Under the pieces are notes generated by a model. It was not told where the DNA came from, searched no databases, and worked only from the letters and a program-made list of their open reading frames with translations. From a virus: a DNA stretch of 30,001 bases. Each line of letters begins with the position of its first letter. The stretch's first letter is position 1. The position numbers and the translations under genes were made by a program. The DNA lies in IMG/VR virus record IMGVR_UViG_3300020020_000127, positions 1 to 30,001 of that record. The stretch is one strand, 5' to 3'. Below are positions 3 to 22,102 of the stretch, piece after piece.

Positions 3-488
3 GAAAAGAAACAACAACAGGCTGCGCCGGCTGCTGCTGTTTTTTCTGAACCAAAAAAGAAACCAAAACCATCGCTCGATAATCCCGCAGTTTATGAATG
101 CCTCAAGGGAGTAGACATTTCTCTGAAAGAACAAGTTCAGATTACCTCGCGCTATGACGAAGAAACCGTAAAGAGCGCAGTCGCTTGGGCTACTCATCCG
201 CAGACAGTGCTTACCAAAGGAATGGCGCCAGCTCTCAAATGGGCGTGTACAGAGAGACCTCAATTGCCACAAAACAAAGAAGAAGTCGAGGAAGATAACC
301 GAAAATACGCAGCAAAATACGATGGAATGAAAAATAAAGTTGCTAAAATAGAATGTTGCAGTAAACATGTAGAAATCGTACATGGTGGCGCTTCAGCAGC
401 AGGTGTATTTATCAAATACGATGAGAAAGGATTCATAGATAAATTCAAGGAAGCGCTTAAAGTTAACAAATTCAATGTTTTGGAGTGA
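3..488 (+). CDS. C-terminal part of an unrecognised phage protein, possibly replication-related (5' truncated)
   Basis: The frame is open from the first bases of the window with no start of its own, so only the last 161 residues are present. It begins with a low-complexity linker rich in Q, A, K and P (residues about 1-22), followed by a compact segment with the pattern LDNPAVYECL and SRYDEETVKSAVAWA, then a lysine/glutamate-rich helix and a C-terminal segment containing a Cys-Cys pair. The layout of linker plus small helical domain beside recombination genes resembles C-terminal domains of phage replisome organisers or initiators, but this is inference from layout and I do not recognise the family. 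The next gene starts five bases after its stop. Confidence 0.55.
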   Translation, partial: EKKQQQAAPAAAVFSEPKKKPKPSLDNPAVYECLKGVDISLKEQVQITSRYDEETVKSAVAWATHPQTVLTKGMAPALKWACTERPQLPQNKEEVEEDNRKYAAKYDGMKNKVAKIECCSKHVEIVHGGASAAGVFIKYDEKGFIDKFKEALKVNKFNVLE

Positions 489-2139: not shown

Positions 2140-2188
2140 CGTAAGAAATAAACTACTTGAAAATATTTTAGGAGTCAAAATTGATTAA
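2027..2188 (+). CDS. small basic helical protein overlapping the previous gene
   Basis: A 53-residue reading frame starting at ATG 2027 with GGAG at 2019-2022. It overlaps the preceding gene by 113 bases and its stop overlaps the TTG start of the ParB-like gene. The first 21 residues are almost only basic (MSGRKLKKMNTMKKLKRKRKK). The rest (FQLEEALRVLQDFNVRNKLL) is a normal amphipathic helix. It could be an independent short protein or the C-terminal end of the 1834 product reached by a +1 frame change. The natural-looking part lies only downstream of about 2090, exactly where the other frame becomes unnatural. Confidence 0.45.
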   Translation: MSGRKLKKMNTMKKLKRKRKKCAVFQLEEALRVLQDFNVRNKLLENILGVKID

Positions 2189-2636
2189 ATGGAAACTAGA
2201 AGAATTACCAATAAAGTCATTGAAAGAACATCCAAAAAATCCTAGACAGATCAAAAAAGATCAATTTGACAGATTATCCAATTTTATAGATAAGTTCGGG
2301 CTCATTGACAAGCCCATCATAAATACTGACATGACAATCATAGGAGGACATCAAAGAATACGCGCTCTCAAGAAGAAGAAGATCAAAACTGTAGAGTGCT
2401 GGGTAGCAGATCGCGAGCTTTTAGACGAAGAAGTAGATGAGCTCTGCATCGGGTTAAATTTGCATCAGGGAAGTTTTGACTATGACCTACTCGGAAATTT
2501 ATGGGATCCTCTAGAACTTTTAGGATATGGCTTCACCGAAGAGCAGCTATTAGGTTCATGCCAAGAAGAAGGAGAGACAAAAGAAAAAACAGGCAAGAAG
2601 AAAAAGAGCTGTCCCCATTGTGGAGAAGAATTATGA
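2181..2636 (+). CDS. ParB/sulfiredoxin-fold protein (phage ParB-like nuclease domain) with C-terminal zinc-knuckle-like end
   Basis: A 151-residue protein starting at TTG 2181, chosen because AGGAG at 2170-2174 is well placed and the alignment to the family begins at once (IKWKLEELPIKSLKEHPKNPR). The ParB N-terminal-like signature is clear: HPKNPR at residues 17-22 and GGHQRIRA at 55-62, the nucleotide-binding box of ParB/Srx-fold proteins. Residues 85-125 hold an acidic helix and the motif DPLELLGYGFTEEQLL. Proteins of this kind often place such a motif before a methyltransferase domain, which is absent here. Residues 144-148 (CPHCG) form half a zinc knuckle. In phages these proteins are nucleases, CTP-binding DNA clamps or modification accessories, and the exact role cannot be read. 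It is coupled by ATGA to the next gene. Confidence 0.8.
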   Translation: MIKWKLEELPIKSLKEHPKNPRQIKKDQFDRLSNFIDKFGLIDKPIINTDMTIIGGHQRIRALKKKKIKTVECWVADRELLDEEVDELCIGLNLHQGSFDYDLLGNLWDPLELLGYGFTEEQLLGSCQEEGETKEKTGKKKKSCPHCGEEL

Positions 2637-4344: not shown

Positions 4345-4536
4345 ATGAGCAAAGAAATGAGCGATGAAATTATTAAATGTCTAAAGTGCGGACATGTTAT
4401 TATTTCCGGTCATGGAATGTCATGTTTATTTTCACAGGGAACTTCTATTGAATGCAGAAATTGCGGAAATAAGCATGTTTTTGGAAATGAAATTACCCTA
4501 ACAAAATTGCTTTTGGACAACAAACATGATAGGTAA
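4345..4536 (+). CDS. small zinc-ribbon protein
   Basis: A 63-residue protein with two clear CxxC knuckles, CLKCGH (residues about 12-17) and CRNCGN (residues about 37-42), separated by a short loop, which is a classic zinc ribbon. The ATG at 4345 has a poor ribosome site. Translation could be coupled to the 13-codon frame at 4326-4367, which overlaps the start, or could begin at ATG 4357. The 3' end overlaps the recombinase gene by 11 bases, so the two are probably co-translated. A nucleic-acid-binding or adaptor role is inferred from the fold only. Confidence 0.6.
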   Translation: MSKEMSDEIIKCLKCGHVIISGHGMSCLFSQGTSIECRNCGNKHVFGNEITLTKLLLDNKHDR

Positions 4537-5095
4537 ACGCATAGGATACAAACGCGTTAGCACCGACGAACAGAATCCTGATAGCCAGCTAGGCGGTATC
4601 GAGTTGGATAAATGTTTCGTTGAAATCGAAACGGGATTCTCAGTAAAAAATAGGCATCAACTGGCAAGTCTAAAAGATTATGTCCGTGAGGACGATATTG
4701 TTTTCGTTGAATGCATGGACCGATTAGGTAGAAATGGGGACGATCTTGATGATATAGTCGAGTTTCTATTGGCAAAAGGGGTAGAGATTCGGTTTGTTCG
4801 GGAAGGGATCATCTTAGGAAAGAAAAACGATCTAATGAGTAAACTCGCATATGATATGATGAAATCGTTCATTCACTTCTTTTCCGCTTTGGCAAGAGAA
4901 CGTATGATGATCGGTGTTAGAAAAGCTCAAAAAGAAGGCAAATACAAAGGGGGAAAACCTCTTGCACAACAAAAAGTTCTTATGATAAAAGAACAGCTCG
5001 CGAATACCAGAAAAACGAAAACTCAGATCTGCAAAGAGATAGGAATTTCTAGAGCTTCTATATACAAATATATGAAAGAATCTAAAGGGATTTAA
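4526..5095 (+). CDS. small serine recombinase (resolvase/invertase family) with C-terminal helix-turn-helix
   Basis: A 189-residue protein, the usual size for the Hin/Tn3-resolvase class. The catalytic domain carries the nucleophile motif GYKRVSTDEQN with Arg10 and Ser12, then the active-site motif MDRLGRN with Asp65, Arg66 and Arg69. The long E-helix follows (FFSALARERMMIGVRKA), then the KEGKYKGGKP hinge. Residues about 150-185 form a helix-turn-helix (KTQICKEIGISRASIYKYM). All key residues are present, so it should be active. Such enzymes cut and rejoin DNA at paired sites to resolve dimers or invert segments. No neighbouring crossover site is proven. The start overlaps the zinc-ribbon gene by 11 bases and lacks a strong Shine-Dalgarno, so it probably relies on coupling. 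Confidence 0.9.
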   Translation: MIGKRIGYKRVSTDEQNPDSQLGGIELDKCFVEIETGFSVKNRHQLASLKDYVREDDIVFVECMDRLGRNGDDLDDIVEFLLAKGVEIRFVREGIILGKKNDLMSKLAYDMMKSFIHFFSALARERMMIGVRKAQKEGKYKGGKPLAQQKVLMIKEQLANTRKTKTQICKEIGISRASIYKYMKESKGI

Positions 5096-5534: not shown

Positions 5535-5749
5535 ATACATTCGATAGCAATTTAGTGATTGAAGAAACAAAAAGAGGATTGGGAGAGGGTCCTCTCACTC
5601 TGATTATTTCTTGTACAAAATGCCAATCTAAATTTGAGCTAGAGAAACAAAGCGTAGTGATAGCTATTGGGACGAAAACCGCATTTATCGAATATTTGAG
5701 ATGGATTCAAAGCAGTAAATGCCGCGTTTGTGAGGAGAATAAATTATGA
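5531..5749 (+). CDS. small zinc-ribbon protein
   Basis: A 72-residue protein. The ATG at 5531 is chosen over an upstream in-frame GTG at 5516 because GAGGGAG lies directly before it and it makes an ATGA overlap with the preceding stop. Two CxxC knuckles, CTKC (residues about 29-32) and CRVC (near the end), are separated by a helix (VVIAIGTKTAFIEYLRWIQ), giving a zinc-ribbon or treble-clef-like arrangement. It resembles the other zinc-ribbon products of this operon in size but not in detail. Function is unknown. Confidence 0.6.
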   Translation: MNTFDSNLVIEETKRGLGEGPLTLIISCTKCQSKFELEKQSVVIAIGTKTAFIEYLRWIQSSKCRVCEENKL

Positions 5750-5988
5750 ACGAGACTGCAATTATTGAAGAACAAGAAATTCTAACAAACAAAACCGTTT
5801 TGTATGTAAGTTTACATAAACAAGATCCTCATGTCATCCGATTGCTTCATTGGATAAAAACCCTTGAGGACATGCGAGACGAAGTTATTTCTACAGAGAT
5901 GGATGAAGAATTAGCACAAAGCTTACAGGAAATAGCTTCTCGTTTAATAAAAGAAGTTGGGGTTAGAGTTTCAATGATTATTCCTTAG
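5746..5988 (+). CDS. hypothetical protein, last gene of the plus-strand operon
   Basis: An 80-residue protein with an ATGA overlap to the previous gene. It begins acidic (NETAIIEEQEILTNK), continues with a strand (TVLYVSLHK) and then two amphipathic helices (IRLLHWIKTLEDMRDEV and EELAQSLQEIASRLIKEVG), ending in VRVSMIIP. No known family is recognised. Its stop overlaps by four bases the stop of a convergent minus-strand gene, and an AT-rich hairpin at 5996-6016 follows that could end transcription in both directions. Confidence 0.55.
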   Translation: MNETAIIEEQEILTNKTVLYVSLHKQDPHVIRLLHWIKTLEDMRDEVISTEMDEELAQSLQEIASRLIKEVGVRVSMIIP

Positions 5989-6173
5989 AGAGGTGAATGT
6001 AAAGCCGCTTTACATTGCTTTTCCTCTAACCGTTTGATGTGATTGGAATACATCAAATTAAATTCACGTTGAAGCCGAATCAATTCAGGGGAAATTCTAG
6101 AAATTCCAGTCTCAAATTTTGAGCAGACACAATCAAAGCAGTGTACTCCGCAAATATCGCATTCGTTACTCAT
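5985..6173 (-). CDS. small Cys-rich protein on the minus strand
   Basis: A 62-residue protein. The ATG complementary to 6171-6173 is chosen because GAGGG lies about five bases upstream and it overlaps the end of the gene above it by eight bases (ATGAGTAA). More upstream Met codons lack a ribosome site and fall in the other gene. The start MSNECDICGVHCFDCVCSKF contains a dense cluster of cysteines able to bind zinc, followed by a helical region (LIRLQREFNLMYSNHIKRLEEK). Its 3' end contains one copy of the 20-bp palindromic element. Function is unknown. Confidence 0.6.
   Translation of the reverse strand: MSNECDICGVHCFDCVCSKFETGISRISPELIRLQREFNLMYSNHIKRLEEKQCKAALHSPL
5995..6016. repeat. palindromic 20-bp element, copy 1
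   Basis: GAATGTAAAGCCGCTTTACA at 5995-6014 is identical to 10876-10895. Each copy contains arms TGTAAAG and CTTTACA around ccg. In this copy the stem extends to 9 bp (AATGTAAAG at 5996-6004 with CTTTACATT at 6008-6016). It lies at a convergent gene junction and is followed by gctttt, so here it may act as a weak two-way terminator. Confidence 0.6.
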
Positions 6174-6303
6174 CCGTACCCTCTTGTAAAGATTCATAGG
6201 CATCATCAATCGCTTTCATGACATACATTACTTCTTTATGGGACAACTCCCATGTAAGATTTCCATAATTTATTAAATACTCTATTAGAATTTCTTTATC
6301 CAT
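6166..6303 (-). CDS. 45-residue helical protein on the minus strand
   Basis: A short gene of 45 residues, start complementary to 6301-6303 and stop complementary to 6166-6168. GAAGGG lies a few bases before the ATG. It overlaps the next minus-strand gene by eight bases, the usual sign of translational coupling, and together they form a two-gene unit facing the main operon. The product is acidic and helical (MDKEILIEYLINYGNLTWEL, then KEVMYVMKAIDDAYESL). No family is recognised. Its reality rests on the ribosome site, the coupling and the natural composition. Confidence 0.55.
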   Translation of the reverse strand: MDKEILIEYLINYGNLTWELSHKEVMYVMKAIDDAYESLQEGTDE

Positions 6304-6331
6304 TTTTCCCTTCTAGTTTTTTTTCCCATTC

Positions 6332-6359
6332 TGTATACCATTATCAACGACAAAAACAA
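6332..6359 (-). promoter_or_regulatory. candidate extended -10 promoter for the minus-strand gene pair
   Basis: On the minus strand TGGTATACA (complement of 6332-6340) forms an extended -10, with TTGTTT (complement of 6354-6359) 16 bases upstream of TATACA. The start point would lie about 20 bases before the ATG at 6303. The GTATAC core is palindromic, so it could also serve the plus-strand HNH gene weakly. Confidence 0.4.
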
Positions 6360-6366
6360 AGGAAAA

Positions 6367-6555
6367 ATGAGCGATAACACATACCCTTATCAAACAATAA
6401 ACGGAATGAAGAAGCGAGTTCATAGGCATGTTATGGAGGAGCATTTAGGGCGTGAGCTAGAGTTTGACGAGCATGTTTATCATATCAACGGAGATCCTTC
6501 GGATAATAGCCTCGAAAACCTAATCGTGATCAAAAAGAAACATAAAGCAAAATAA
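6367..6555 (+). CDS. small HNH endonuclease-like protein
   Basis: A 62-residue protein with AAAGGAAAA directly before the ATG. It contains the phage HNH_3-type core: RVHRHVMEEHLGREL, then HVYHINGDPSDNSLENL, then a terminal KKKHK. The usual HHxNG pair is YHINGD here, so the first histidine (normally an Asp or His metal ligand) is Tyr, while the second histidine, the Asn of DNSLENL and the final His are kept. Members of the family are often much longer. This one is close to a bare motif and may be a remnant of a homing endonuclease or a DNA-binding/nicking protein next to the terminase genes, where small HNH proteins are often found. Confidence 0.7.
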   Translation: MSDNTYPYQTINGMKKRVHRHVMEEHLGRELEFDEHVYHINGDPSDNSLENLIVIKKKHKAK

Positions 6556-6629
6556 TGGATTGGATGTTGATCATTTTCTACTGCATATGTGCTTTCTTGT
6601 GTTATCTAGCAGCTAAATATTTACGTTAA
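6555..6629 (+). CDS. 24-residue membrane peptide
   Basis: A very short reading frame whose ATG overlaps the previous stop (TAATG). It encodes MDWMLIIFYCICAFLCYLAA and four more residues (KYLR), that is, one hydrophobic helix of about 18 residues with a positively charged end, which fits a single inner-membrane span with the C-terminus inside. Stop-start coupling and the clean membrane profile support it, but its size makes it uncertain. The function is unknown. The position before the terminase genes gives no clue. Confidence 0.4.
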   Translation: MDWMLIIFYCICAFLCYLAAKYLR

Positions 6630-6680
6630 ATTTTTAATTCTATATCTTGAGGTCAAAAACACTTAACGACATGATAGTTT

Positions 6681-7091
6681 ATGGCAAGACCTTTAAAAGA
6701 AATAAATTGGGATTTAGTTGATAAACTTATTGAGGCAGGGTGTAGTGGCGTAGCTATATCAGGAAAATTTAGGATACAAAGCGATACATTTTACGCAAGA
6801 TTCAAAAAGGAATACGGCTGTAGTTTCCAGGATTATCGGGCAGATGTCCAGGAGGCGGGTTTAGCTGATTTAATGATGATGCTACATGCAAAAGCTTTGA
6901 ATAATAAAGCTCCTGGAAACTCTAACCTTTTGATATTTTTAGCAAAAACAAAATTGGGAATGAAAGAACCAGAGACAACAAATCTAGTTGCGCCTAATCA
7001 AGTAGGAATAGATCAATCTCATATCATCATGCAGCTTCAAAACAGAGTAAACGAATTAGAGGCAAATGCCAACAAGTCCAAAACAGAATAA
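6681..7091 (+). CDS. terminase small subunit
   Basis: A 136-residue protein directly upstream of and overlapping the large terminase gene. The N-terminal part has the layout of phage small terminases: INWDLVDKLIEAGCSGVAIS, then a helix-turn-helix (KFRIQSDTFYARFKKEYGCSFQDY) that recognises the packaging site. A helical oligomerisation segment follows (LADLMMMLHAKALN) and then NSNLLIFLAKTKLGMKEP, the typical NLLIWLGKNRLGMKE-type box. The C-terminal part (MQLQNRVNELEANAN) is a short coiled coil that could contact TerL. No clear Shine-Dalgarno is seen at 6681, so initiation may depend on an unusual leader. Confidence 0.8.
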   Translation: MARPLKEINWDLVDKLIEAGCSGVAISGKFRIQSDTFYARFKKEYGCSFQDYRADVQEAGLADLMMMLHAKALNNKAPGNSNLLIFLAKTKLGMKEPETTNLVAPNQVGIDQSHIIMQLQNRVNELEANANKSKTE

Positions 7092-8337
7092 GAGTTTCTG
7101 CGAAGCAACTCATCGTTTTAACATATGGGTAGGTGCTGTAAGCTCTGGAAAGACATTTGCGAGTATAGAACGTCTCATAATGGACCTTAAAGATGGTCCT
7201 CCTGGTGATGCAATGATCATAGGCGTTAACAGGACAGCAATACAACGAAACATACTCACTCACCTATATAAGCAATTAGGTTTCCCGTGTCCGACAGAGA
7301 AAGCACAGATGGCAAAACTTTACGGCCGCAATGTTTGGTTTGTGGGTGCTCCCGATGTGTCAGCTGTCTCCACAATTCAGGGATCGACCCTGGCCCTGGC
7401 TTATGTCGACGAAGCAACAAACCTTCCGGAGCCATTCTGGAAGATGCTAGAAAGCCGTCTAAGAGTTCCGGGAGCTAAACTACTCGCTACTTGCAACCCT
7501 GAAGGCCCGGCGCATTGGCTTAAGAAGGACTATATTGACAAGCCGGAGTTAGACCTAGTTCACTGGGACTTTAACCTCGAAGATAATCCCACACTTGACG
7601 AAGCATACAAACAACAACTGAAAGCCTCTTATACAGGTATGTGGTATAATCGCTACATTCTTGGAGAATGGGCACTTGCACACGGAGCTATATATGACTG
7701 CTACGATCATTTCAACGAATATGAAAACCCATTCCCAGCTCCAAACTATTACATTGTTGGCATTGATTACGGCACCACTAACGCTACAGCGGCCGTTCTA
7801 TTGGCTGTGTCGCCGAAGACGTGGCCTCAAATTAGAGTTGAAGCAGAATATTACTATGATTCAGCTAAGAAAGGCAGGTCTAAAACAGATCAAGAACTCG
7901 TTAGGGACATCAAAGAATTCATTGGCTATAAGAATGTATCTGCAATATATGTGGATCCTGCAGCTGCCTCTCTCAAAATCGCCCTTCGACAAGCTGACTT
8001 GCCTATATTGGATGCGAACAATGACGTACTCCTTGGGATTAAAATATGCTCTAAATTCATAGGTGGTAAAAACATAGTCATTCAAAAAGGATGTACAACA
8101 TTGAGGGAGCATCTTCAATCATACGCGTGGGATTCTAAGGCAGCCGATAGAGGTGAGGACAAGCCTGTTAAAAAGAACGACCATATACTAGATGCTCTAA
8201 GGTATGCTGTATGCTCGGCATTTCCTCAAGGTGAATTTAGTCATCCGGATGAGAATATTAGCTATGATCAATTGAGGAAGAAGATATTTCAGGACGACCA
8301 AAGTCCGTTATACGATCCAATGGGAGGAGGGTTTTAA
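7066..8337 (+). CDS. terminase large subunit
   Basis: A 423-residue packaging motor and nuclease, with AGAGG before the ATG, which overlaps the small subunit gene by 26 bases. The ATPase domain has a Walker A box GAVSSGKT (residues 23-30) and a Walker B box ALAYVDEAT with Asp115 and Glu116, followed by the coupling motif LLATCNPEGP (residues 139-148). The nuclease domain begins at IVGIDYGTTNATA with Asp234 as the first metal ligand, continues with AIYVDPAAASL and ends at the conserved DHILDALRYA. All catalytic acids are present and the length is normal for P22/SPP1-like enzymes. It cuts and pumps phage DNA into the prohead through the portal. The stop overlaps the next ATG (TAATG). Confidence 0.95.
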   Translation: MPTSPKQNKSFCEATHRFNIWVGAVSSGKTFASIERLIMDLKDGPPGDAMIIGVNRTAIQRNILTHLYKQLGFPCPTEKAQMAKLYGRNVWFVGAPDVSAVSTIQGSTLALAYVDEATNLPEPFWKMLESRLRVPGAKLLATCNPEGPAHWLKKDYIDKPELDLVHWDFNLEDNPTLDEAYKQQLKASYTGMWYNRYILGEWALAHGAIYDCYDHFNEYENPFPAPNYYIVGIDYGTTNATAAVLLAVSPKTWPQIRVEAEYYYDSAKKGRSKTDQELVRDIKEFIGYKNVSAIYVDPAAASLKIALRQADLPILDANNDVLLGIKICSKFIGGKNIVIQKGCTTLREHLQSYAWDSKAADRGEDKPVKKNDHILDALRYAVCSAFPQGEFSHPDENISYDQLRKKIFQDDQSPLYDPMGGGF

Positions 8338-8556: not shown

Positions 8557-10581
8557 ATGCCATCATACGAATCTGGTCAATATTCCCTAGGCTATATCGA
8601 TCCCTCAGACGTTCAGACTAAACACCTGAAGCAGATGCAGGATTATTTCTATCAGTCTAACTATACAACTAACTCTACGTATTGGTTACAGGGCGCAATT
8701 GACAAGCGATTTAAAGTTGGAGATCAACAGCTTTACAATCAAATGTATGGTCAGAATTCACAGAACGTTCAGAAGTTCTTTTTCAATCTAATACGGCGTC
8801 ACATTAACATGATAGCCGGTTTTCAACGTAAGAATCGAAAGTCTACGATCACAATGCCTGTTAGCGATGGCGATGATCCATTAGCAGATGACTACAACAA
8901 AGTAATGCGCTGGTGTGATGATAGGGATGGATTCCAAGAATATCTTTCTCAAGCATTTGAAGGGGCTTGTGATGTGGGTGAGTATCTACTTCATTTGTAC
9001 CCAGATTATACCTACGACCCTATTTCAGGTGATCTTTTTACGGATGCGGTTAGCTGGAATAATTATTTGATAGATACGTATAGCCGTAAGCAAGATTTAT
9101 CAGACTGTAACGGAATATGGAGAAGACGTTGGACATCTAAGAATGCAGCTAAAATGCTAATTCCAGGTTATTCTAAAGAGATAGACAAGATGAAACCAGA
9201 TGGTATGAAAGATGGACGATTCCCACTACAAGCTGAGTTACAGAACGTGGCTATTAACAATCTATTCACCTACGATGAATTCTACTACCGTACGACAAGG
9301 CCAGGAAAGATCATTCTCGACCCTTACTCTGGTGAAGCCGTGGAATGGGAAGAAGCAGAAGGCGACGAAGAAGATACCATGGAGCGCGTACTTGCGCAGC
9401 AACCTTGGTTACAAGTACACAAGACAGATATCCCGACTGTAAAACTAGTAATAAGTCTATCTGGTAAGATGGTCTATCATGGTAAAACTCTTTTGAATAC
9501 GGATAATTACCCCTTCATTCCATGTCAAACATATATAGAGCAAGACGTTCAGTCGTACGCATGGCGAAAACAAGGAATTATTAGAAATCTTCGGGACAGC
9601 CAATTTTTGTATAACATGCGCAAAGTAATTGAGCTACAACTACTACAAAGTTCTTTAAATGCTGGTTGGATATATCCTGTAGACGTTGTTCCCGACCCAA
9701 AATGTTTCCGTCAATCAAGTGGTGGTAATGGGTTCCTAATTCCGCTTAAAGCAGGTCGTCAACCAGGTGAAATACAAAGAATTGAGCCTGTAGCTATACC
9801 ACAATCATTACTTGAGCTTTCAAATAGTTTAGCGGAAGATATTACAAAAATTTCGGGGGTAAATGAAGAGCTTTTGGGATCGGCCACCGATGATAAGTCA
9901 GGAATATTATCAATGCTACGACAGGGCGCTGGTCTTACGACGCTTCAAACTATATTTGATAAACTCGACTATTCGCAGAGATTATACGGGAAGATTAGGC
10001 TTCAAGCCATTCGTAAAAACTTTAGTAAAGGTAAAATTCGGAATATCCTTGGTCATGATGCCGATCCAAGATTCTGGTCAAGTCATAGCCAAAAATATGC
10101 CATTGCAGTCGAAGAGGGGAACTACAGCACGACTCAACGGCAGATGGAACTTCAACAACTGTTACACTTTAAAGAACTCGGTATGGCAGTGGCCGACAAA
10201 TCTATTATCAGAGCCGCGTTTCTTACCAACAAGCGACAAGTTATCGAAGATATGGAAGAGCAGAAGCAAGCTGAGCAACAACAGCAACAAGCGCAAGCTG
10301 AACAGCAAGAGAAGATGGATAACGCTAAGATCATGGCTGCGTTCTCCAAATCTAAAGTTGATATGGCTCGCGAGCAAGATCTTCAAGCTTCAGCTCAAGA
10401 GCGTATGGCTAAGATTGAAGATCTACACGCTAGTGCTGAGCATAAGAGTATGGAAAGCGATCTCAATCTTGTGAGAGTAATGGTAGAACTTGAAGACATG
10501 CAATTTAATCAACTGAGAGAAGAATTTTACCATGCACAAGAAATTAGGCAGGCAAGAAAACAAGAAGAAGCTATAATTTAG
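8557..10581 (+). CDS. P22-type portal protein
   Basis: A 674-residue protein following the terminase, as expected for a portal ring subunit. The N-terminal region (YFYQSNYTTNSTYWLQGAIDKRFKVGD, then FFFNLIRRHINMIAGFQRKNRKS) matches the start of P22-like portals, and RNLRDSQFLYNMRKVIELQLLQSS in the middle fits the core. The last 110 residues are Q-, E- and A-rich helix (EEQKQAEQQQQQAQAEQQ onwards), comparable to the long C-terminal barrel helix of the P22 portal. Twelve copies normally form the DNA entry pore and the docking site for terminase and tail. The ribosome site is modest (CAGAGACGAA). The length is slightly below P22 gp1. Confidence 0.88.
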   Translation: MPSYESGQYSLGYIDPSDVQTKHLKQMQDYFYQSNYTTNSTYWLQGAIDKRFKVGDQQLYNQMYGQNSQNVQKFFFNLIRRHINMIAGFQRKNRKSTITMPVSDGDDPLADDYNKVMRWCDDRDGFQEYLSQAFEGACDVGEYLLHLYPDYTYDPISGDLFTDAVSWNNYLIDTYSRKQDLSDCNGIWRRRWTSKNAAKMLIPGYSKEIDKMKPDGMKDGRFPLQAELQNVAINNLFTYDEFYYRTTRPGKIILDPYSGEAVEWEEAEGDEEDTMERVLAQQPWLQVHKTDIPTVKLVISLSGKMVYHGKTLLNTDNYPFIPCQTYIEQDVQSYAWRKQGIIRNLRDSQFLYNMRKVIELQLLQSSLNAGWIYPVDVVPDPKCFRQSSGGNGFLIPLKAGRQPGEIQRIEPVAIPQSLLELSNSLAEDITKISGVNEELLGSATDDKSGILSMLRQGAGLTTLQTIFDKLDYSQRLYGKIRLQAIRKNFSKGKIRNILGHDADPRFWSSHSQKYAIAVEEGNYSTTQRQMELQQLLHFKELGMAVADKSIIRAAFLTNKRQVIEDMEEQKQAEQQQQQAQAEQQEKMDNAKIMAAFSKSKVDMAREQDLQASAQERMAKIEDLHASAEHKSMESDLNLVRVMVELEDMQFNQLREEFYHAQEIRQARKQEEAII

Positions 10582-10845: not shown

Positions 10846-10875
10846 GGGCACATGTAAAAAGTGTGTCCGTTTTTT
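10846..10875 (+). terminator. rho-independent terminator after the portal unit
   Basis: GGGCACA (10846-10852) pairs with TGTGTCC (10862-10868), with one G-T wobble, around a nine-base loop, and a run of six T follows at 10870-10875. A second inverted repeat, AATCCGT with ACGGATT, lies just upstream. Structure is judged by eye. Confidence 0.6.
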
Positions 10876-10895
10876 GAATGTAAAGCCGCTTTACA
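10876..10895. repeat. palindromic 20-bp element, copy 2
   Basis: GAATGTAAAGCCGCTTTACA, identical and in the same orientation as 5995-6014. The stem here is TGTAAAG with CTTTACA around ccg and no T-run follows it. It lies directly after the terminator and 13 bases before the ATG at 10909, so it may act as an operator or processing site for the next gene. Confidence 0.6.
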
Positions 10896-10908
10896 CGAAG
10901 GTTCTACG

Positions 10909-11124
10909 ATGAGTAAAAAAAATAAACATAATCCTGATTACCTAAAAAACACCACAGCAGACGTTATCAAACATGGCAGTGGTCGAGCTGTTCCCAATGA
11001 GCAATGGGAAATGAATCGTGATATTACACCAGCAGGCGAAAGCAATCCATGGGGAGCATTCCTTCCTAGATCTGGAAAAGATCGTCCCACACCACATACA
11101 AAACTAAACGAGTGTGATCATTGA
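10909..11124 (+). CDS. small hypothetical protein
   Basis: A 71-residue protein. The ATG at 10909 is preferred over an in-frame GTG at 10861 because GAAGG lies eight bases upstream of it and the upstream part would run through the terminator and the palindromic element. The product is polar and basic, rich in Asn, Pro and Lys (MSKKNKHNPDYLKNT, RAVPNEQWEMN, SNPWGAFLPRSGKDRP), so it is probably extended rather than compactly folded. It ends in NECDH, the same ending as the next gene. No family is recognised. It may be a minor virion or assembly factor, judging only from position. Confidence 0.6.
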   Translation: MSKKNKHNPDYLKNTTADVIKHGSGRAVPNEQWEMNRDITPAGESNPWGAFLPRSGKDRPTPHTKLNECDH

Positions 11125-11301: not shown

Positions 11302-11502
11302 ATGAATAAAAGATTATCGATGGGTAAAAAATTCAATAGTCATTTCGGATATGTAGAGTTACCTTCTGAAATACTAGAAGTGGGAATATTTGATAATCAC
11401 ATGGAATTTGATTGTGAAGATGGCGTATATCATGTTTATAGAAATGCACCCAATCCATTAAAAGTAGTAAAAGTTTATGATAGAAAGGTAAAGGATGACT
11501 AG
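11302..11502 (+). CDS. small beta-rich hypothetical protein
   Basis: A 66-residue protein. ATG 11302 is chosen over an in-frame GTG at 11278, which lies inside the previous gene. The ribosome site (GGAAATGGA) is weak, so coupling to the preceding gene is likely. The sequence alternates short strands (HFGYVELPSEILEVGIF, MEFDCEDGVYHVYRN) and ends in VVKVYDRKVKDD. It looks like a small beta sheet, faintly like KTSC-type domains, but the motif is not convincing. Its end overlaps the next gene by eight bases with AAAGG serving that next start. Confidence 0.5.
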   Translation: MNKRLSMGKKFNSHFGYVELPSEILEVGIFDNHMEFDCEDGVYHVYRNAPNPLKVVKVYDRKVKDD

Positions 11503-12121
11503 AATAACAGCAGGCGAGCTATCAAGAAAGTCCCTAGCAGATACTACAAAGTATAATGCACTCGAAGTTGGTCATGCTATGGCCGATGACATCGAGCCAC
11601 ACTTGTATGAGGCTGCGCAGAACTATCACAACATGATCAACGAGACAGAGTATTGCGTTGTCATGGTCATCGCCAAAGACCCTCTCATCAAGAACTTAAT
11701 CCGTCGCAAATTCTATTGCTGGCCTTACTTGCCTAGCCCAAGACCTAACCAAGCCGTATTTTTGTATAACAAACAGCTACAGCGAATAACGAAACGGTTA
11801 TGGGTATTACCCAGCGACATGGTAATGGCAGAGTTAGCATCACTAGCAATTGTAGACAAAAGATACAAAACCATGCAGGCATGGGCGATATCCTTTTTTG
11901 AGGGTAAGTTTTGGGAATATATTCGCTATGAAAGCGGTATCGATATGCCATCAGAGCATGAATACTTACTAGAGCATAGACAAGAATTGCTCGATGCGGG
12001 ATGCAAGATCCCTGATTCTAACGACCCCGAGCCCTTTGATTTTAGTAAAATCCACATTGAAAAGATCGTAGATACGCAAGAAGCCAGCGTCCAGCAAGAT
12101 CCTCTCAGTAGCTGCGGGTAA
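11495..12121 (+). CDS. conserved-looking hypothetical phage protein
   Basis: A 208-residue protein with AAGGTAAAGG before the ATG. It lies between the portal and scaffold genes. The first 150 residues look well folded: helices around HAMADDIEPHLYEAAQNYHN, a strand with an RRKFYCWPYLPSPRP segment, then LWVLPSDMVMAELASLAIV and a helix ending at FEGKFWEYIRYESG. The last 50 residues (LLEHRQELLDAGCKIPDS onwards) are encoded opposite the helix-hairpin-helix domain of the minus-strand gene. I do not recognise the family. By position it may take part in prohead or portal assembly, which is inference. Confidence 0.7.
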   Translation: MTRITAGELSRKSLADTTKYNALEVGHAMADDIEPHLYEAAQNYHNMINETEYCVVMVIAKDPLIKNLIRRKFYCWPYLPSPRPNQAVFLYNKQLQRITKRLWVLPSDMVMAELASLAIVDKRYKTMQAWAISFFEGKFWEYIRYESGIDMPSEHEYLLEHRQELLDAGCKIPDSNDPEPFDFSKIHIEKIVDTQEASVQQDPLSSCG

Positions 12122-12286
12122 GCATAAAGCACCTATCGGTGCATCCGCAGCCATAAAATTAATAGTCGTTCTATACTCATCGAATTTCTTTATAAGTTCA
12201 TCACGAAATTTTCGCATTTGCATGTCAAATTCAATGTTCTTATTTACATTCTCAATATTTTCTTCTATATTCACGCTAGAAACCAT
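11969..12286 (-). CDS. helix-hairpin-helix protein antisense to its neighbour
   Basis: A 105-residue protein on the minus strand. The ATG (complement of 12284-12286) has GAGGG six bases upstream. The N-terminal half is charged and helical (VNIEENIENVNKNIEFDMQM, then RDELIKKFDEYR). The C-terminal 50 residues carry a recognisable helix-hairpin-helix domain of the RNA-polymerase-alpha-CTD/RAD51-N type: ERILLDAGFLRIYDLFNVDF, then KIKGLGVVRIRDLASRI with the KGLG hairpin. This domain binds DNA or protein. The last 153 bases lie opposite the end of the plus-strand gene at 11495-12121, and the domain is coded entirely there. A natural domain over its whole length argues against chance. The function is unknown, possibly a DNA-binding regulator. 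Confidence 0.6.
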   Translation of the reverse strand: MVSSVNIEENIENVNKNIEFDMQMRKFRDELIKKFDEYRTTINFMAADAPIGALCLPAATERILLDAGFLRIYDLFNVDFTKIKGLGVVRIRDLASRIEQFLSML

Positions 12287-12300
12287 AGGAGGCCCTCAAT

Positions 12301-13056
12301 ATGACTGTTAGTACACCAGAAAATACGATACAAGAAATTTCAACACAAGATAAAGCTGCAATAAACGTAGTTCAGCCAACAGAAAATGTGGATGTACAAA
12401 AAGAGCAAAATTTTAAAGCCTTCCGTGAGGCAAGGGAAGTTGATAAAGCAAAAAGAATAGCAGCAGAACAAAAAGCGGCTGAAAAAACGGCAGAAGTTGA
12501 AGCACTTAAGGCAGCAATGGAAGCAGCGTTTTCAAAGAATGCTCCTAGCCCACAGGCATATCAGCAATATTATGGAATAAATTCCGGTTCCAATATACAA
12601 GAAGACGAAACAGAAGATCAACGAATTGAAAAGAAAGTTACTCAGCTTCTCGCGGTTAAGGAAGAGAAACAAAGGAAGGAGCGTGAAGAATATGAGCAAA
12701 GAGAATACCCGAATAGATTGGTAAAAGATTTTCCTGATTTTAACCAGGTTATAGCACAAGAAAATTTAGATTACATTGATTTTCACTATCCCGAAGTCTC
12801 AAGACCTCTACAAAGACTAAATGAAGGCTATGACAAATGGGCTGATATATATCGTGCTATTAAGAAATTCGTTCCTAATAACACCACAGCAAAGAAAGAA
12901 GCCGATAAAGCTGTAGCGAACTTTAACAAACCTAAGTCAATGTCTAGCGCCAATGTAACACCATCTGGTGAAAGCACCCCGTATTCCTCGCATGATGTTG
13001 AACAACGTAGAGCAGCAAACTGGGCCAGAATGCAATCTATTATCAAGAAGGTATAA
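12301..13056 (+). CDS. putative scaffolding protein
   Basis: A 251-residue protein with a strong AGGAGG (12287-12292) eight bases before the ATG. It sits between portal and coat genes, where tailed phages keep the scaffold. Composition fits: highly charged, no cysteine, with a long A/E/K-rich helix (AKRIAAEQKAAEKTAEVEAL), a second charged coil (EEKQRKEREEYEQREYPNRL) and a basic C-terminus (RAANWARMQSIIKKV) like the coat-binding helix-turn-helix of P22 scaffold. The middle (VKDFPDFNQVIAQENLDYID) resembles a conserved phage segment. Scaffold proteins guide coat assembly and leave before DNA packaging. Assignment rests on position and composition, not on a family motif. Confidence 0.7.
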   Translation: MTVSTPENTIQEISTQDKAAINVVQPTENVDVQKEQNFKAFREAREVDKAKRIAAEQKAAEKTAEVEALKAAMEAAFSKNAPSPQAYQQYYGINSGSNIQEDETEDQRIEKKVTQLLAVKEEKQRKEREEYEQREYPNRLVKDFPDFNQVIAQENLDYIDFHYPEVSRPLQRLNEGYDKWADIYRAIKKFVPNNTTAKKEADKAVANFNKPKSMSSANVTPSGESTPYSSHDVEQRRAANWARMQSIIKKV

Positions 13057-13379: not shown

Positions 13380-14348
13380 ATGTCATTCCAGACAGGAATT
13401 ACAAATATTAATAACATGGCTCCAGAATTGCCTGTACAGGCATCTGAAGACCTATTGTCAACTCCAATGTTTAACTTAATCCACTCTTTCGGTGTTGATC
13501 TACACCATGCTGAAAGCTATGTGGGTAAAACTACACGTATGTCTCGTTTTGAGCGTCTATCTACTGATGGCGGTCAACTCGATGGTTCCGGTATTGATCC
13601 AGCCTCAGAAGTTCCCGTGCGTTCCGACATCGATGCTACAATGGAAATCTATGCGAAATCCATCGTAACAAACGAGCAAGTCGTGCTGTGGGAGAACTCT
13701 AAGACCTTAACCAAGTTCACAGCACTGCTAGGACAATGGCTGAGAGAAAAGGAAGATCTTTTGATGCGTGACCTATTTTCAAGTTCGGTCAGTTACATAA
13801 ACGCCACAGGGGGCTTAAACGGCGACCAACCTAGTAATATTTCTTTGAATGATGTTAATAACATTGAAAATATCCTACTTGGAAATGATGCTCGTAGCAT
13901 GCTTACAAACCTAGAGGCTACTCTAAAGCTTGCTACAGGTGGTGTGAGAGACGCATTTATTGCTCTTGCAAATACAAACTTGGCAGCAGATTTACAGAAA
14001 GTTCAAGGCGTATTGCTTAAATCGGCATATCCAACGCAAGAAGGAATTAGACCAGAGGAATACTGTTCTATCTCCCGCTTCCGTTTCTTCGTCTCATCTA
14101 AAGCTGCGCGTACGCCTGGAGTCTCATTGAGAGGAAACACTGTATATACCATTCCTATGTATGGACTAGAAGCAGCAGCCAAAATCGAACAGAACAACTA
14201 TACCGCAGTAATCGGATATCGTCCCCCTTGGGTCGTTTCGTCTGTGGCACAGAACAGCCAACTGTACGCCAAGTTTGCAATTGCCCGTGCGATTACAAAC
14301 CAAAACTGGATCAGTGGGCTAAACGTCACAACATTCCAAGCTTCATAG
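13380..14348 (+). CDS. major capsid protein (N4-gp56-like, HK97 fold)
   Basis: A 322-residue protein in the coat position, after the scaffold. The sequence pattern is that of N4-gp56-type coats: KTTRMSRFERLSTDGGQLDG followed by PASEVPVRSDIDATMEIYAKSIVTNEQVVLWENS, then the long spine helix (LTKFTALLGQWLREKEDLLMRDLF), and a C-terminal beta domain with RFRFFVSSKAARTPG and YTIPMYGLEAAAKIEQNNY. The spine helix and the E-loop-like N-terminal strand pair fit the HK97 fold. Many copies form the icosahedral shell. The strong leader structure before it suggests translational control of its high output. It is slightly shorter than most N4-gp56 members. Confidence 0.8.
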   Translation: MSFQTGITNINNMAPELPVQASEDLLSTPMFNLIHSFGVDLHHAESYVGKTTRMSRFERLSTDGGQLDGSGIDPASEVPVRSDIDATMEIYAKSIVTNEQVVLWENSKTLTKFTALLGQWLREKEDLLMRDLFSSSVSYINATGGLNGDQPSNISLNDVNNIENILLGNDARSMLTNLEATLKLATGGVRDAFIALANTNLAADLQKVQGVLLKSAYPTQEGIRPEEYCSISRFRFFVSSKAARTPGVSLRGNTVYTIPMYGLEAAAKIEQNNYTAVIGYRPPWVVSSVAQNSQLYAKFAIARAITNQNWISGLNVTTFQAS

Positions 14349-17735: not shown

Positions 17736-20131
17736 TGGCAGGCTATAGCCCTCTCAAAATCACAGGTAACGAAACTGGACTCGTTAAAAATCGAGAAGAG
17801 TTTCTTTTACCTAACGATGCATACCCTACTTTACAGAATGCGTATGTATGGCGCGAGAGAATCCTAAGAAAACGGGCATACGTTTTACTTGGCAGACTTC
17901 AACGCTCTGTCACTAGGACAAGCACATATACAGTCGCAAGCTTTAATCTCTACACGTTTCTATCTATCACTGAAGCAACTCGCACTATAGTTCCCGGATC
18001 AATCGTTATTACTCTGGGTGCTGAAACGTATGTAGATAATGGAAACGGTACTTTAACTGGAACTCCATCAGGTTCAGCAACAATAAATTATATATCTGGT
18101 GTCATCACATTCACAACTGCTCAAGCATTTGGTAGCGCACTTACAATCACATTATATTATTATCCTGGACTTCCTGTGATGGGAATTAGGACGCAGGAGC
18201 TACAAAATAGCGCAATAGATCAGACGATATTTTTTGATCAAGTTTATGCCTATATTTTCGATAGTACATTAAATCATTTTGTGGAGTTTATTCCTGGTAC
18301 TACATGGAACGCATCAGGCGAGGCGGTTTCAGGAACAAGTTTTTTCTGGTCTACAAACTATTGGGTAAGTTCTAACCCTCCGTTTACCACCACAAACCAA
18401 AAGCTTTTCTGGGTTACAAATAATACAGGCGCTAAGGGAGCAACTTCAGATCCAATTAGAATAACGGATGGTATCACCTGGCTTGATTTTGTACCTCCTA
18501 CCTATGGACAAATAGATGCAGCGCCTAATTATTTTGTAAATTGCCTCTCATTCCTTCCTTTTCGTGGTCGATTGGTTGCGTTTAATACATGGGAAGGCAC
18601 TGATGCAGCGCAAGCTGTAAATTATTCAAATCGGATACGTTGGTCAACAATCGGTAATCCGTTCATACCATTTACAGCACCATCTCCAGGAGTTCCAGCA
18701 AAAGGATCTTGGAGAGACGATATAAGAGGACAAGGTGGCTTTCTTGATATACCAACTAGCGAGGATATTGTATCTGTCGGTTTTGTTAGGGATAATCTCG
18801 TTATTTATTGCGAGCGTTCGACTTGGCAGCTTCGTTATACGGGTCGCTCGATTGCGCCATTTCAGATAGAGCGAGTCAATAGTGAGCTTGGAGGAGAAGG
18901 TCCATTCTCTGCTGTTCAGTTCGATACTTCCCTTGTCGGAATCGGTGATAAGGGAATTGTAGAATGCGATAGCTATCAATCTCAACGAATCGATATCAAA
19001 ATTCCTGATATAGTTTTCGGATTCCAGATCAAAAATAATGGCCCTTATCGCGTTCATGGCATTAGAGACTTTATTCGTCGCCTAGCCTATTGGACAATAC
19101 CAGTTCTAAGTCAATACGAGGCTTTTCCAGGAGCCGACGGGACAACTTGGATATTCCCTAATCAACGATTGGTTTACAACTACGAAAACGATTCATGGGC
19201 ACTATTTAACGACTCATTGACAACTCTAGGTAATTTCCAACCAGTAAACAGTAGAACGTGGTTAAGCACTCCGATTCCATGGATTGAGTGTAATTTCTCA
19301 TGGAAAGACTCGGAACCTGCCGGAATTCCCTCAATTGTCGCAGGGAATCAACAGGGATTTATTGAGTATATAGACGTAGACGGCATCACAACAAACGACG
19401 TCAGTCTTTATATTTCCGCTATACTAGGACATGCAACCTCCGGACCTCCGATCACAGGGACTCCAACGGTAATTACCAGTCCTAATCACAATATGAATAC
19501 AGGTTTCGTTATTGAGATTACGTCTATTCCTGCATCCACGCCATACGCTAATTTGAATGGGGGAATTTTCTATATCGAAGTGATCGATCAAAATACATTC
19601 ACTCTATGGGTATACGATCCGATAACCCTAGAATTTAGCACTCCGCAACTTGACGTGCCAGCCGGAACATATATCGGCGGTGGTTTGATTCAGATAAGAG
19701 AAAATTTCTCTATAATAAGCAAGAAATTCAACTTCTTAGATGAAGGACAAAACATTCAACTTGGCTATATAGATATTCTAATGCAGTCTACCTCTGAAGA
19801 TTCTCCTGGGGCCATTAGTTTGAATGTTTATCTCGATTATGACGACGATGAACCGTCAAATACATTACCTAGAAATAAGATCAATAGTTATGCAAGCACA
19901 GCACCGGACACTTTCTTTAACTCGACAATTCCAACAAGTCAATCAACGTTGAATAATGTGGGCGGAAGTAAATTCTGGCAGCGAGTGTATTGTCCAACTA
20001 GAGCTAACTTTATAACGCTAGAATATACGTTATCCAATGCCCAAATGGCCGGAACAGAACAGACGCAAGACGTACAAATTGACGCCCAAGTCCTATACAT
20101 CCGCAAGGCGGGCAGAATGACACAAGGTTAA
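17735..20131 (+). CDS. tail hub/tube protein, gp10-like, with FCCH-like insert
   Basis: A 798-residue, mostly beta protein. The N-terminal box FLLPNDAYPTLQNAYVWRER and the repeated strands around PFRGRLVAFNTWEGTDAAQA and VGFVRDNLVIYCERSTWQLR are typical of the P22 gp10/tail-tubular-B class of beta-propeller hub proteins. An acidic FCCH-like insert lies at residues about 565-650 (TVITSPNHNMNTGFVIEITS, NQNTF-type strands as NTFTLWVYDPITLEF). The C-terminal region (YIDILMQSTSEDSPGAISLN onwards) forms a further beta unit. It should form the central hexameric tail shaft below the connector. The length is above P22 gp10 (472 residues) because of the extra beta inserts. Confidence 0.7.
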   Translation: MAGYSPLKITGNETGLVKNREEFLLPNDAYPTLQNAYVWRERILRKRAYVLLGRLQRSVTRTSTYTVASFNLYTFLSITEATRTIVPGSIVITLGAETYVDNGNGTLTGTPSGSATINYISGVITFTTAQAFGSALTITLYYYPGLPVMGIRTQELQNSAIDQTIFFDQVYAYIFDSTLNHFVEFIPGTTWNASGEAVSGTSFFWSTNYWVSSNPPFTTTNQKLFWVTNNTGAKGATSDPIRITDGITWLDFVPPTYGQIDAAPNYFVNCLSFLPFRGRLVAFNTWEGTDAAQAVNYSNRIRWSTIGNPFIPFTAPSPGVPAKGSWRDDIRGQGGFLDIPTSEDIVSVGFVRDNLVIYCERSTWQLRYTGRSIAPFQIERVNSELGGEGPFSAVQFDTSLVGIGDKGIVECDSYQSQRIDIKIPDIVFGFQIKNNGPYRVHGIRDFIRRLAYWTIPVLSQYEAFPGADGTTWIFPNQRLVYNYENDSWALFNDSLTTLGNFQPVNSRTWLSTPIPWIECNFSWKDSEPAGIPSIVAGNQQGFIEYIDVDGITTNDVSLYISAILGHATSGPPITGTPTVITSPNHNMNTGFVIEITSIPASTPYANLNGGIFYIEVIDQNTFTLWVYDPITLEFSTPQLDVPAGTYIGGGLIQIRENFSIISKKFNFLDEGQNIQLGYIDILMQSTSEDSPGAISLNVYLDYDDDEPSNTLPRNKINSYASTAPDTFFNSTIPTSQSTLNNVGGSKFWQRVYCPTRANFITLEYTLSNAQMAGTEQTQDVQIDAQVLYIRKAGRMTQG

Positions 20132-20841: not shown

Positions 20842-21330
20842 ATGACAACTCCGTCAGATAATCAGCAGCTAGAAAGCTATGTTCCCGTATACGACTCAAT
20901 ACCTGAGAAATGGGAAGATGCGCGTGCGTTCATTGTGGAACAATTAAAGAAAGTGAGCACGGCCATTAATTTGCGTGAGATAGGCTGGTTTTTAGACGAG
21001 GAGCTGTTAACTGGAAAAGCGTTTATTCCGAGCCCTGGTAATATATCAGCTAGTCAGACCTCACAGAATTTTAGAACGATTTTACGTACAGTGGTTCCAT
21101 TTCCAGGATTATCACCTGGCTTGAACTCACAGCCACACAATATAACGATAGACTCGAACTTTAGCCTTATGCAGCTATACGCAGCAGCCACAAATGACAC
21201 GACATTGACTGGCGAGCCTATACCTAATGGCGCCGACACTATCACATATGACGCGACCAATATTAATATAACCGTAGCAGCAGCATACACACGTGCTTGG
21301 GCTGTCATCGAATACATACAGGAGCTTTGA
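20842..21330 (+). CDS. hypothetical virion protein
   Basis: A 162-residue protein starting three bases after the previous stop, with AGGG-type spacing. The start (YVPVYDSIPEKWEDARAFIV, EQLKKVSTAINLREIGWFLD) is helical. The body (NFRTILRTVVPFPGLSPGLN onwards) is beta-rich and ends with ITVAAAYTRAWAVIEYIQEL. It looks like a compact trimer-forming or capping domain. It has no known motif that I can name. By position between the short fibre and the ejection proteins it is probably a tail-tip or virion protein. Confidence 0.6.
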   Translation: MTTPSDNQQLESYVPVYDSIPEKWEDARAFIVEQLKKVSTAINLREIGWFLDEELLTGKAFIPSPGNISASQTSQNFRTILRTVVPFPGLSPGLNSQPHNITIDSNFSLMQLYAAATNDTTLTGEPIPNGADTITYDATNINITVAAAYTRAWAVIEYIQEL

Positions 21331-21331
21331 T

Positions 21332-22102
21332 ATGGGATTTTTTGACTATGTGATACCAGGTGGAAAAAAGAACCCAATTAGGGGAGTAACCAGAGCGGGG
21401 AAAAAATTATGGTTAGGTTCACCTGAAGAGCGCGAGAATGTTTCTACTCTTAGACCAGAGCAGGAAGGGAATTTTCAAAACCTTCAAGATGCGGCAGGTG
21501 GAAGGGGTGCAAGCGGAGCATTCGGAGAATCAGCGGACTATTATCGTGATCTAATGAGTAACGATAATGCGGATATCAACGCATTTAATGCGCCAGCACT
21601 ACGACAATATAATGAGGAAATAGTACCAGGTCTTTCTGAACAATTTGCCGGCATGGGTGCAGGTGGTTTATCTAGCTCAGGTTTTAGAAACGCTCAAATC
21701 CAAGGGGCTACGGATCTATCCGAAAGGTTGGGGGCTATGAGAGCTAATCTAAGACAGAGAGGGGCTGAAGGGCTACAGAATATTGGGCAACAAAGCTTGG
21801 GTAACTATAGCCAAAATATGGTGACTAAACAAGGTTCACAGGGTTTAATTGGCTCTGTAGGCCCTGCTTTAGTTTCCGCAGGAGCAGCAGCATTAGGTGG
21901 GCCGGCAGCAGGAGCGGCAGCGTATCCGATGGCTAATCAAGCGTTCAATGGTGTTGGAGGTCAACAAGCAAATACTGGTAGCCTTGGTATGAACAACAGC
22001 CCTTATGGCCGTCAAGGTCCTCAAGCTAGTCCGTTCAAAAGCCCAAGTATGCAAAATAACGGAGTTTCCCAATTACCTGGTTATATGCAAGGGATGAGGT
22101 AG
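21332..22102 (+). CDS. putative DNA ejection (internal virion) protein 1
   Basis: A 256-residue protein. ATG 21332 is chosen because AGGAG lies eight bases upstream; an in-frame TTG at 21293 lies inside the previous gene. It opens with MGFFDYVIPGGKKNP and continues with helices (NADINAFNAPALRQYNEEIV, GFRNAQIQGATDLSERLGAM). The second half is Gly/Ala-rich (VGPALVSAGAAALGGPAAGA), a hydrophobic stretch that could insert into a membrane, then a Q/S/G-rich flexible end. Similar proteins are stored in the head and form the ejection channel in P22-like phages (gp7, gp16, gp20 class). The call rests on position and composition. Confidence 0.6.
   Translation: MGFFDYVIPGGKKNPIRGVTRAGKKLWLGSPEERENVSTLRPEQEGNFQNLQDAAGGRGASGAFGESADYYRDLMSNDNADINAFNAPALRQYNEEIVPGLSEQFAGMGAGGLSSSGFRNAQIQGATDLSERLGAMRANLRQRGAEGLQNIGQQSLGNYSQNMVTKQGSQGLIGSVGPALVSAGAAALGGPAAGAAAYPMANQAFNGVGGQQANTGSLGMNNSPYGRQGPQASPFKSPSMQNNGVSQLPGYMQGMR

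Follow-up and report, generated by a model that had tools for sequence, protein, structure and literature searches.

The window, a term by which we refer to the whole stretch of DNA analysed, is a 30,001-base IMG/VR virus record, and the features discussed here are collected in Table 1. Downstream of genes for the terminase large subunit and a P22-like portal protein, a conserved plus-strand gene and a minus-strand gene run toward each other and share their 3' ends, and the start codon of the minus gene faces that of the next plus gene across a short junction. In a simple ORF map of two long relatives, essentially all other coding in the head and tail region falls on one strand, so that the antisense gene stands alone in the apparent late operon. 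The 251-residue product of the gene at 12301 had no credible match in Pfam or PHROGs; it may be scaffold-like, since its gene precedes the putative head gene at 13380-14348 and its composition is charged.

Table 1. Location of the genes, overlap, junction and protein features discussed in the text (positions in the window, or residues where so given).
Feature	Location	Strand	Basis or remark
Terminase large subunit	7066..8337	+	PF03237, E 2e-12; phrog_2, E 1.5e-49
P22-like portal protein	8557..10581	+	Pfam PF16510, E 5e-68; PHROG 156; marks the packaging/head operon
Overlapped plus gene, 208 aa	11495..12121	+	Lies between the portal gene and 12301..13056; relatives in 72 IMG/VR loci and in more distant ones
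Convergent double-coding overlap, 153 bp	11969..12121	both	Recoding tests, substitution classes, codon-position rates
FDFSKI, plus codons 181-186	12035..12052	+	Opposite minus residues 79-84 (DFTKIK), where the hairpin starts
Antisense gene, 105 aa	11969..12286	-	ATG start; ORF list
Predicted long N-terminal helix of the minus product	residues 3-46		AF2 model
Predicted alpha-CTD-like helix-hairpin-helix domain of the minus product	residues about 47-104		AF2 model, Foldseek, VIA, profile
Divergent junction, 14 bp, AGGAGGCCCTCAAT	12287..12300	both	A Shine-Dalgarno-like sequence for each strand
Next plus gene, 251 aa	12301..13056	+	Homologue in 67 loci

Other parts of the surroundings are also of interest. 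Between the portal gene and the 208-residue gene, a small plus ORF (10861-11124) matches 122 loci with up to 85% identity and has no Pfam or PHROGs match; it is a conserved head-region gene without a name. On the minus strand, a 94-residue ORF lying between plus genes (1476-1760) is free of stops in its homologues from two long relatives, which are 41% and 33% identical to it, and looks like an ordinary non-overlapping gene; three further long minus ORFs opposite plus genes (27500-27946, 18644-19057 and 21054-21377), used as controls, appear spurious, because the matching antisense stretches of relatives contain stop codons. Upstream of the terminase gene, a serine recombinase (4526-5095, plus strand; PF00239, E 2e-22; best PHROG "DNA invertase") is kept in two long relatives with about 46% identity, and its role might be that of an integrase or of an inversion switch; the early region also encodes a 151-residue protein with a ParB N-terminal-like domain (2181-2636, plus strand; PF02195, E 1e-6). 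In the distant locus L139, an ORF at 5720-6721, which lies downstream of the 251-residue gene's homologue at a distance of about 0.7 kb, contains a RING/U-box-like stretch recognized by eye (CSISRDIIKDPVQTVCGHTFERVMIEDY...CPDCRKEF), possibly a hint of a host living with eukaryotes.

The preliminary description of this DNA had claimed a helix-hairpin-helix gene with a Shine-Dalgarno sequence of its own, lying opposite the final part of a plus-strand phage gene. A GAGG is indeed found 7 nt 5' of the minus ATG at 12286 (ATTGAGGGCCTCCT-ATG in minus-strand reading), and the gene itself finds support in its conservation, in tests of selection and in the predicted structure. The plus protein has relatives at 72 IMG/VR loci, 3 of which end before the overlap region; all of those that reach it (69/69) have an open minus frame at an unchanged antisense position and in one constant codon register, and tblastn likewise found the frame open in the relatives. 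These 69 loci encode 59 distinct minus proteins, several loci being identical in this product. The distant loci L137 and L139, obtained in a second scan and with plus proteins 46 and 45% identical to the plus protein of locus L070, also have the minus gene, which is single-copy in 15/15 contigs of 35.6-39 kb. The absence of homologues with the domain in the minus frame, or stop codons in that frame in close relatives, had been named as findings that would speak against the gene; homologues are present at all 69 loci reaching the region, and the minus frame shows 0 stops across plus codons 161-208 in 59 aligned sequences, vs 38 on average when codons 176-197 alone are synonymously recoded (antisense stops tallied just ahead of codon 161 are the minus gene's own stop, at plus codon 159). 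The ORF at 11969-12286 is almost certainly a real protein-coding gene with double coding against the plus gene and, as its distribution indicates, is kept throughout a clade of uncultured soil phages, the longest contigs of which measure 36-39 kb. No relative was found in cultured phages, and scans of the GTDB species genomes with the minus protein and the plus alignment, which were pattern-based and mainly detect close relatives, yielded no bacterial copy.

The overlap comprises plus codons 159-208 and the stop codon of the gene at 11495-12121, and every minus codon in it is the exact reverse complement of a plus codon (11969-11495 = 474 = 3x158). This codon-on-codon phase (123:321) is identical in every relative examined, and the convergent overlap extends over about 120-195 nt in nearly all loci. 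When the plus frame was synonymously recoded, minus identity over codons 159-197 fell from the observed 0.53 to 0.30 (z 60); the same recoding in non-overlapping control blocks gave z values of 4-8, which serve as a gauge of the inflation produced by relatedness. In the reciprocal test, with the minus frame recoded, plus identity was 0.56 observed vs 0.29 recoded. Where the plus amino acid is the same, the codon is also the same in a proportion of 0.65 within the overlap vs 0.39-0.46 elsewhere. Furthermore, constraint falls on different alignment columns in the two frames: all sequences (59/59) keep R71 in the minus protein, while the plus residue opposite may be T, P, S or another (codons ACG, CCT and TCT), and opposite the invariant plus residues F181, D182, F183 and K185 the minus residues alternate between K/E, I/V and L/F.

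The comparison of synonymous and nonsynonymous change that had been suggested for both frames revealed purifying selection in both across relatives. In the codon model, omega was 0.055 for minus residues 23-55, outside the overlap, and 0.036 for plus codons 100-158, vs 1.31 for the antisense of those same plus codons, taken as a non-coding control; inside the overlap, values of 0.33 (plus) and 0.37 (minus) were obtained, raised because free synonymous sites are scarce there. Differences at minus codon positions 1, 2 and 3 amounted to 0.44, 0.30 and 0.63 outside the overlap, and to 0.45, 0.18 and 0.43 inside. Across 29 disjoint pairs, plus-altering but minus-silent changes in the overlap occurred at 1.15x the expectation and changes altering both proteins at 0.42x, the two corresponding classes outside the overlap being at 0.24x and 0.27x. 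Judged from these substitution patterns, purifying selection acts on each of the two frames within the 153 bp that they share.

A search of profile libraries had also been proposed in the preliminary description. With the single minus sequence of the window, Pfam, PHROGs, PDB and cultured phages gave no match; the likeness of the domain is visible only via the family profile and structure. The profile of 56 minus proteins had RNA polymerase alpha CTDs as its best four matches in the PDB (E 0.005 to 0.05), and hhalign of the minus profile with a small alpha-CTD alignment gave a probability of 94 and an E of 9e-8 over 54 columns, this E being that of a single two-profile comparison with alpha-CTD sequences picked after the PDB profile result. 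Individually, 3/56 aligned minus proteins matched PF03118 (best E 0.00045; the window sequence itself does not), and 4/56 matched HHH_5 (best E 0.0065). The AlphaFold2 (AF2) model of the minus protein (pLDDT 84) has helices at residues 3-46, 51-54, 58-67, 72-75 and 88-104. The best four Foldseek matches of this model were likewise alpha CTDs (rmsd 1.1-1.3 Å over 57-59 columns; E 0.04 to 0.11, probability 1.00), and VIA-align to alpha CTD reached a Z of up to 9.5; RAD51-family N-terminal lobes score nearly as high (VIA Z 8-8.7), because they belong to the same helix-hairpin-helix superfamily. In this sense, profile, Foldseek, VIA and hhalign results refine the original helix-hairpin-helix reading, and the predicted fold of the minus domain is very probably RNA-polymerase-alpha-CTD-like.

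At the residue level, Y38, D48, L64 and R71 are invariant in the minus protein, the hairpin KIKGLG (hxGhG type) is conserved (G85 in 53/56, G87 in 42/56), and R90 and R92 are commonly conserved basic residues. The likeness to alpha CTD, as derived from sequence and structure prediction alone, would be one of shape, function apart. The alpha-CTD residues that contact DNA, R265, N268 and C269 (E. coli numbering), are not kept in the minus family, the equivalent columns holding T/K/A/V/S/P, K/T/S/N and I/A/L, respectively, in the register of the profile-PDB alignment, so that UP-element binding by the minus protein is without support.

The preliminary description had further seen a real domain in both frames, which stands for the folded minus domain and fails to extend to the plus frame. 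The AF2 model of the plus protein (pLDDT 75) is good to about residue 167 and poor past 170, and codons 171-208 are of low confidence (pLDDT 38-58), yet they include the invariant FDFxK motif (F181, D182, F183 and K185, each in 59/59), which is also invariant in the 33-row alignment A2. The plus C-terminal tail is, by this model, probably flexible; since it is only weakly predicted, the minus domain would face short helices (near residues 154-167) and a tail, with no second folded domain. A PDB fold search with the plus protein gave no credible match, and one of BFVD returned only uncharacterised phage proteins of 120-167 aa, the best relatives (154-167 aa) being from uncultured Caudovirales. 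A weak hit of the plus protein in crAss-like phages (E 0.4) was dismissed, since the gene concerned has an unrelated, non-structural neighbourhood. Of the two genes, the minus one is probably the older, because its predicted fold belongs to an old cellular family; this, together with BFVD relatives of only 154-167 aa, points to overprinting into the minus gene as the probable origin of the plus tail, which would begin at about codon 160.

The minus ATG at 12286 and the plus ATG at 12301 are divergent and 14 bp apart. Among the 47 loci in which the gap measures 5-60 bp (start codons were set by rule, and single loci may be off), a plus Shine-Dalgarno sequence was found in 42, a minus one in 26 and both in 24. 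The 14 nt preceding the plus start contain CTCC or CCTC in 25/42 junctions vs 0/76 other Shine-Dalgarno-led ORFs of at least 100 aa; as these motifs indicate, the junction often forms a palindromic double Shine-Dalgarno. Translation of the minus gene may start at this 14-bp junction, which would double as the ribosome-binding site of the divergent gene at 12301. Its transcription would proceed from a putative opposite-strand promoter within the late operon, and such opposite-strand transcription implies that minus expression and late transcription should interfere with each other. In 58 loci, sigma-70-like promoter sites ahead of the minus gene showed no enrichment relative to shuffled sequences.

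Taken as a whole, the explanation that we favor, and regard as likely, is that of a genuine double-coded minus gene that converges with a conserved plus head-region gene and overlaps its 3' end codon in register; this minus gene would encode an alpha-CTD-like fold, be older than its partner's tail and act through its product as a transcription-linked regulator. Concerning this last part, our best guess is a small regulator of host transcription, which would touch RNA polymerase, sigma or an activator via its alpha-CTD-like surface, its N-terminal helix perhaps serving for dimerisation; we advance a transcription-related function tentatively, with somewhat less than even confidence. A more elaborate scenario, in which the phage alpha-CTD-like protein redirects the host RNA polymerase, the folded domain and the conserved linear motif are co-maintained on opposite strands for as long as the clade has diversified, the palindromic junction serves both ribosome-binding sites, and regulator and late expression are mutually exclusive, seems to us rather doubtful.

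The minus protein might instead be a DNA-handling or packaging accessory, that is, a helix-hairpin-helix DNA binder working with the terminase, the portal or head assembly. We consider this unlikely: the invariable position between the portal region and the 12301 gene, the single copy always at that place, and the KIKGLG hairpin with the commonly conserved R90 and R92 would suit such an accessory, but the gene lies on the strand opposite to the co-transcribed head genes, so its expression would not be common with theirs, and its top matches are alpha CTDs and not nuclease, repair or packaging proteins. It is quite improbable that the minus gene is mainly a cis regulator, with opposite-strand transcription and the shared ribosome-binding junction tuning the late genes while the protein matters little; the palindromic double Shine-Dalgarno (25/42 vs 0/76) and the convergent overlap kept in nearly all loci would agree with it, whereas the strong purifying selection on the protein outside the overlap (omega 0.055, with codon periodicity) argues against it, and a predicted fold would be needless. 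Finally, a single coding frame in the overlap, the other being open by chance and staying similar as in-register antisense, is next to inconceivable and was rejected: although in-register antisense inherits some conservation (recoded identity 0.30) and the window contains further long antisense ORFs, recoding in both directions, the codon model, the substitution classes of disjoint pairs, the lack of stops in the overlap of 59 sequences vs the stops of the control antisense ORFs, and the conserved non-overlapping half of the minus gene all oppose it.

Under the preferred reading of a double-coded, alpha-CTD-like regulator, several aspects go beyond this locus. Standard phage genome annotation can miss conserved, structured proteins such as those of antisense genes, and the possible part of a new alpha-CTD-like protein in host transcription takeover is open to assay. 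Dozens of diverged natural sequences carrying a folded domain and a second conserved protein on the same codons also make double-strand coding models directly testable. In comparison with the alpha CTD (PF03118), the domain of the minus protein is alike in predicted fold, length and core (PI-x-x-L-x-L ... L-x-x-x-G ... D-L ... I/V-x-G-L/I-G); the protein differs in being a stand-alone protein of 105 aa with a long N-terminal helix and no alpha NTD joined to it, in lacking conserved equivalents of R265, N268 and C269, and in having a shorter link before the hairpin, seen as a 3-residue gap in the alignments.

Antisense coding genes of prokaryotes and phages are disputed, the published cases being mostly young and poorly conserved (PMC7457138); no account of the present gene pair was found in the literature searched, whose coverage was partial. 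A review of the antisense overlapping genes of bacteria (pop, laoB and others) calls them typically small and young, and their products unlikely to fold (PMC7457138). Such genes share with the present pair the production of two proteins from opposite strands of one DNA stretch, overlooked by annotation; the present overlap, in contrast, is partial and tail-to-tail, is conserved clade-wide and covers a predicted folded domain. Gene 10 and olg1 of Pseudomonas phage Fc02 are likewise overlapping phage genes on opposite strands, for which the abstract reports strand-specific RNA-seq and a role in superinfection exclusion; they belong to the lysis-lysogeny region, and a clade-wide selection test does not appear in that abstract (PMC9936078). 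Among prokaryotic convergent overlaps, the commonest phase is 123:132 and cases of >100 bp fall in the fat tail of lengths (PMC2174442); the present pair is also tail-to-tail, and its phase is 123:321 instead of the commonest one. Lastly, the Rodin-Ohno hypothesis places codon-on-codon antisense coding in the ancestral aminoacyl-tRNA synthetases (PMC4082485); the likeness is one of codon geometry alone, and the difference is that the gene pair described here is a present-day phage locus in which both frames can be tested.
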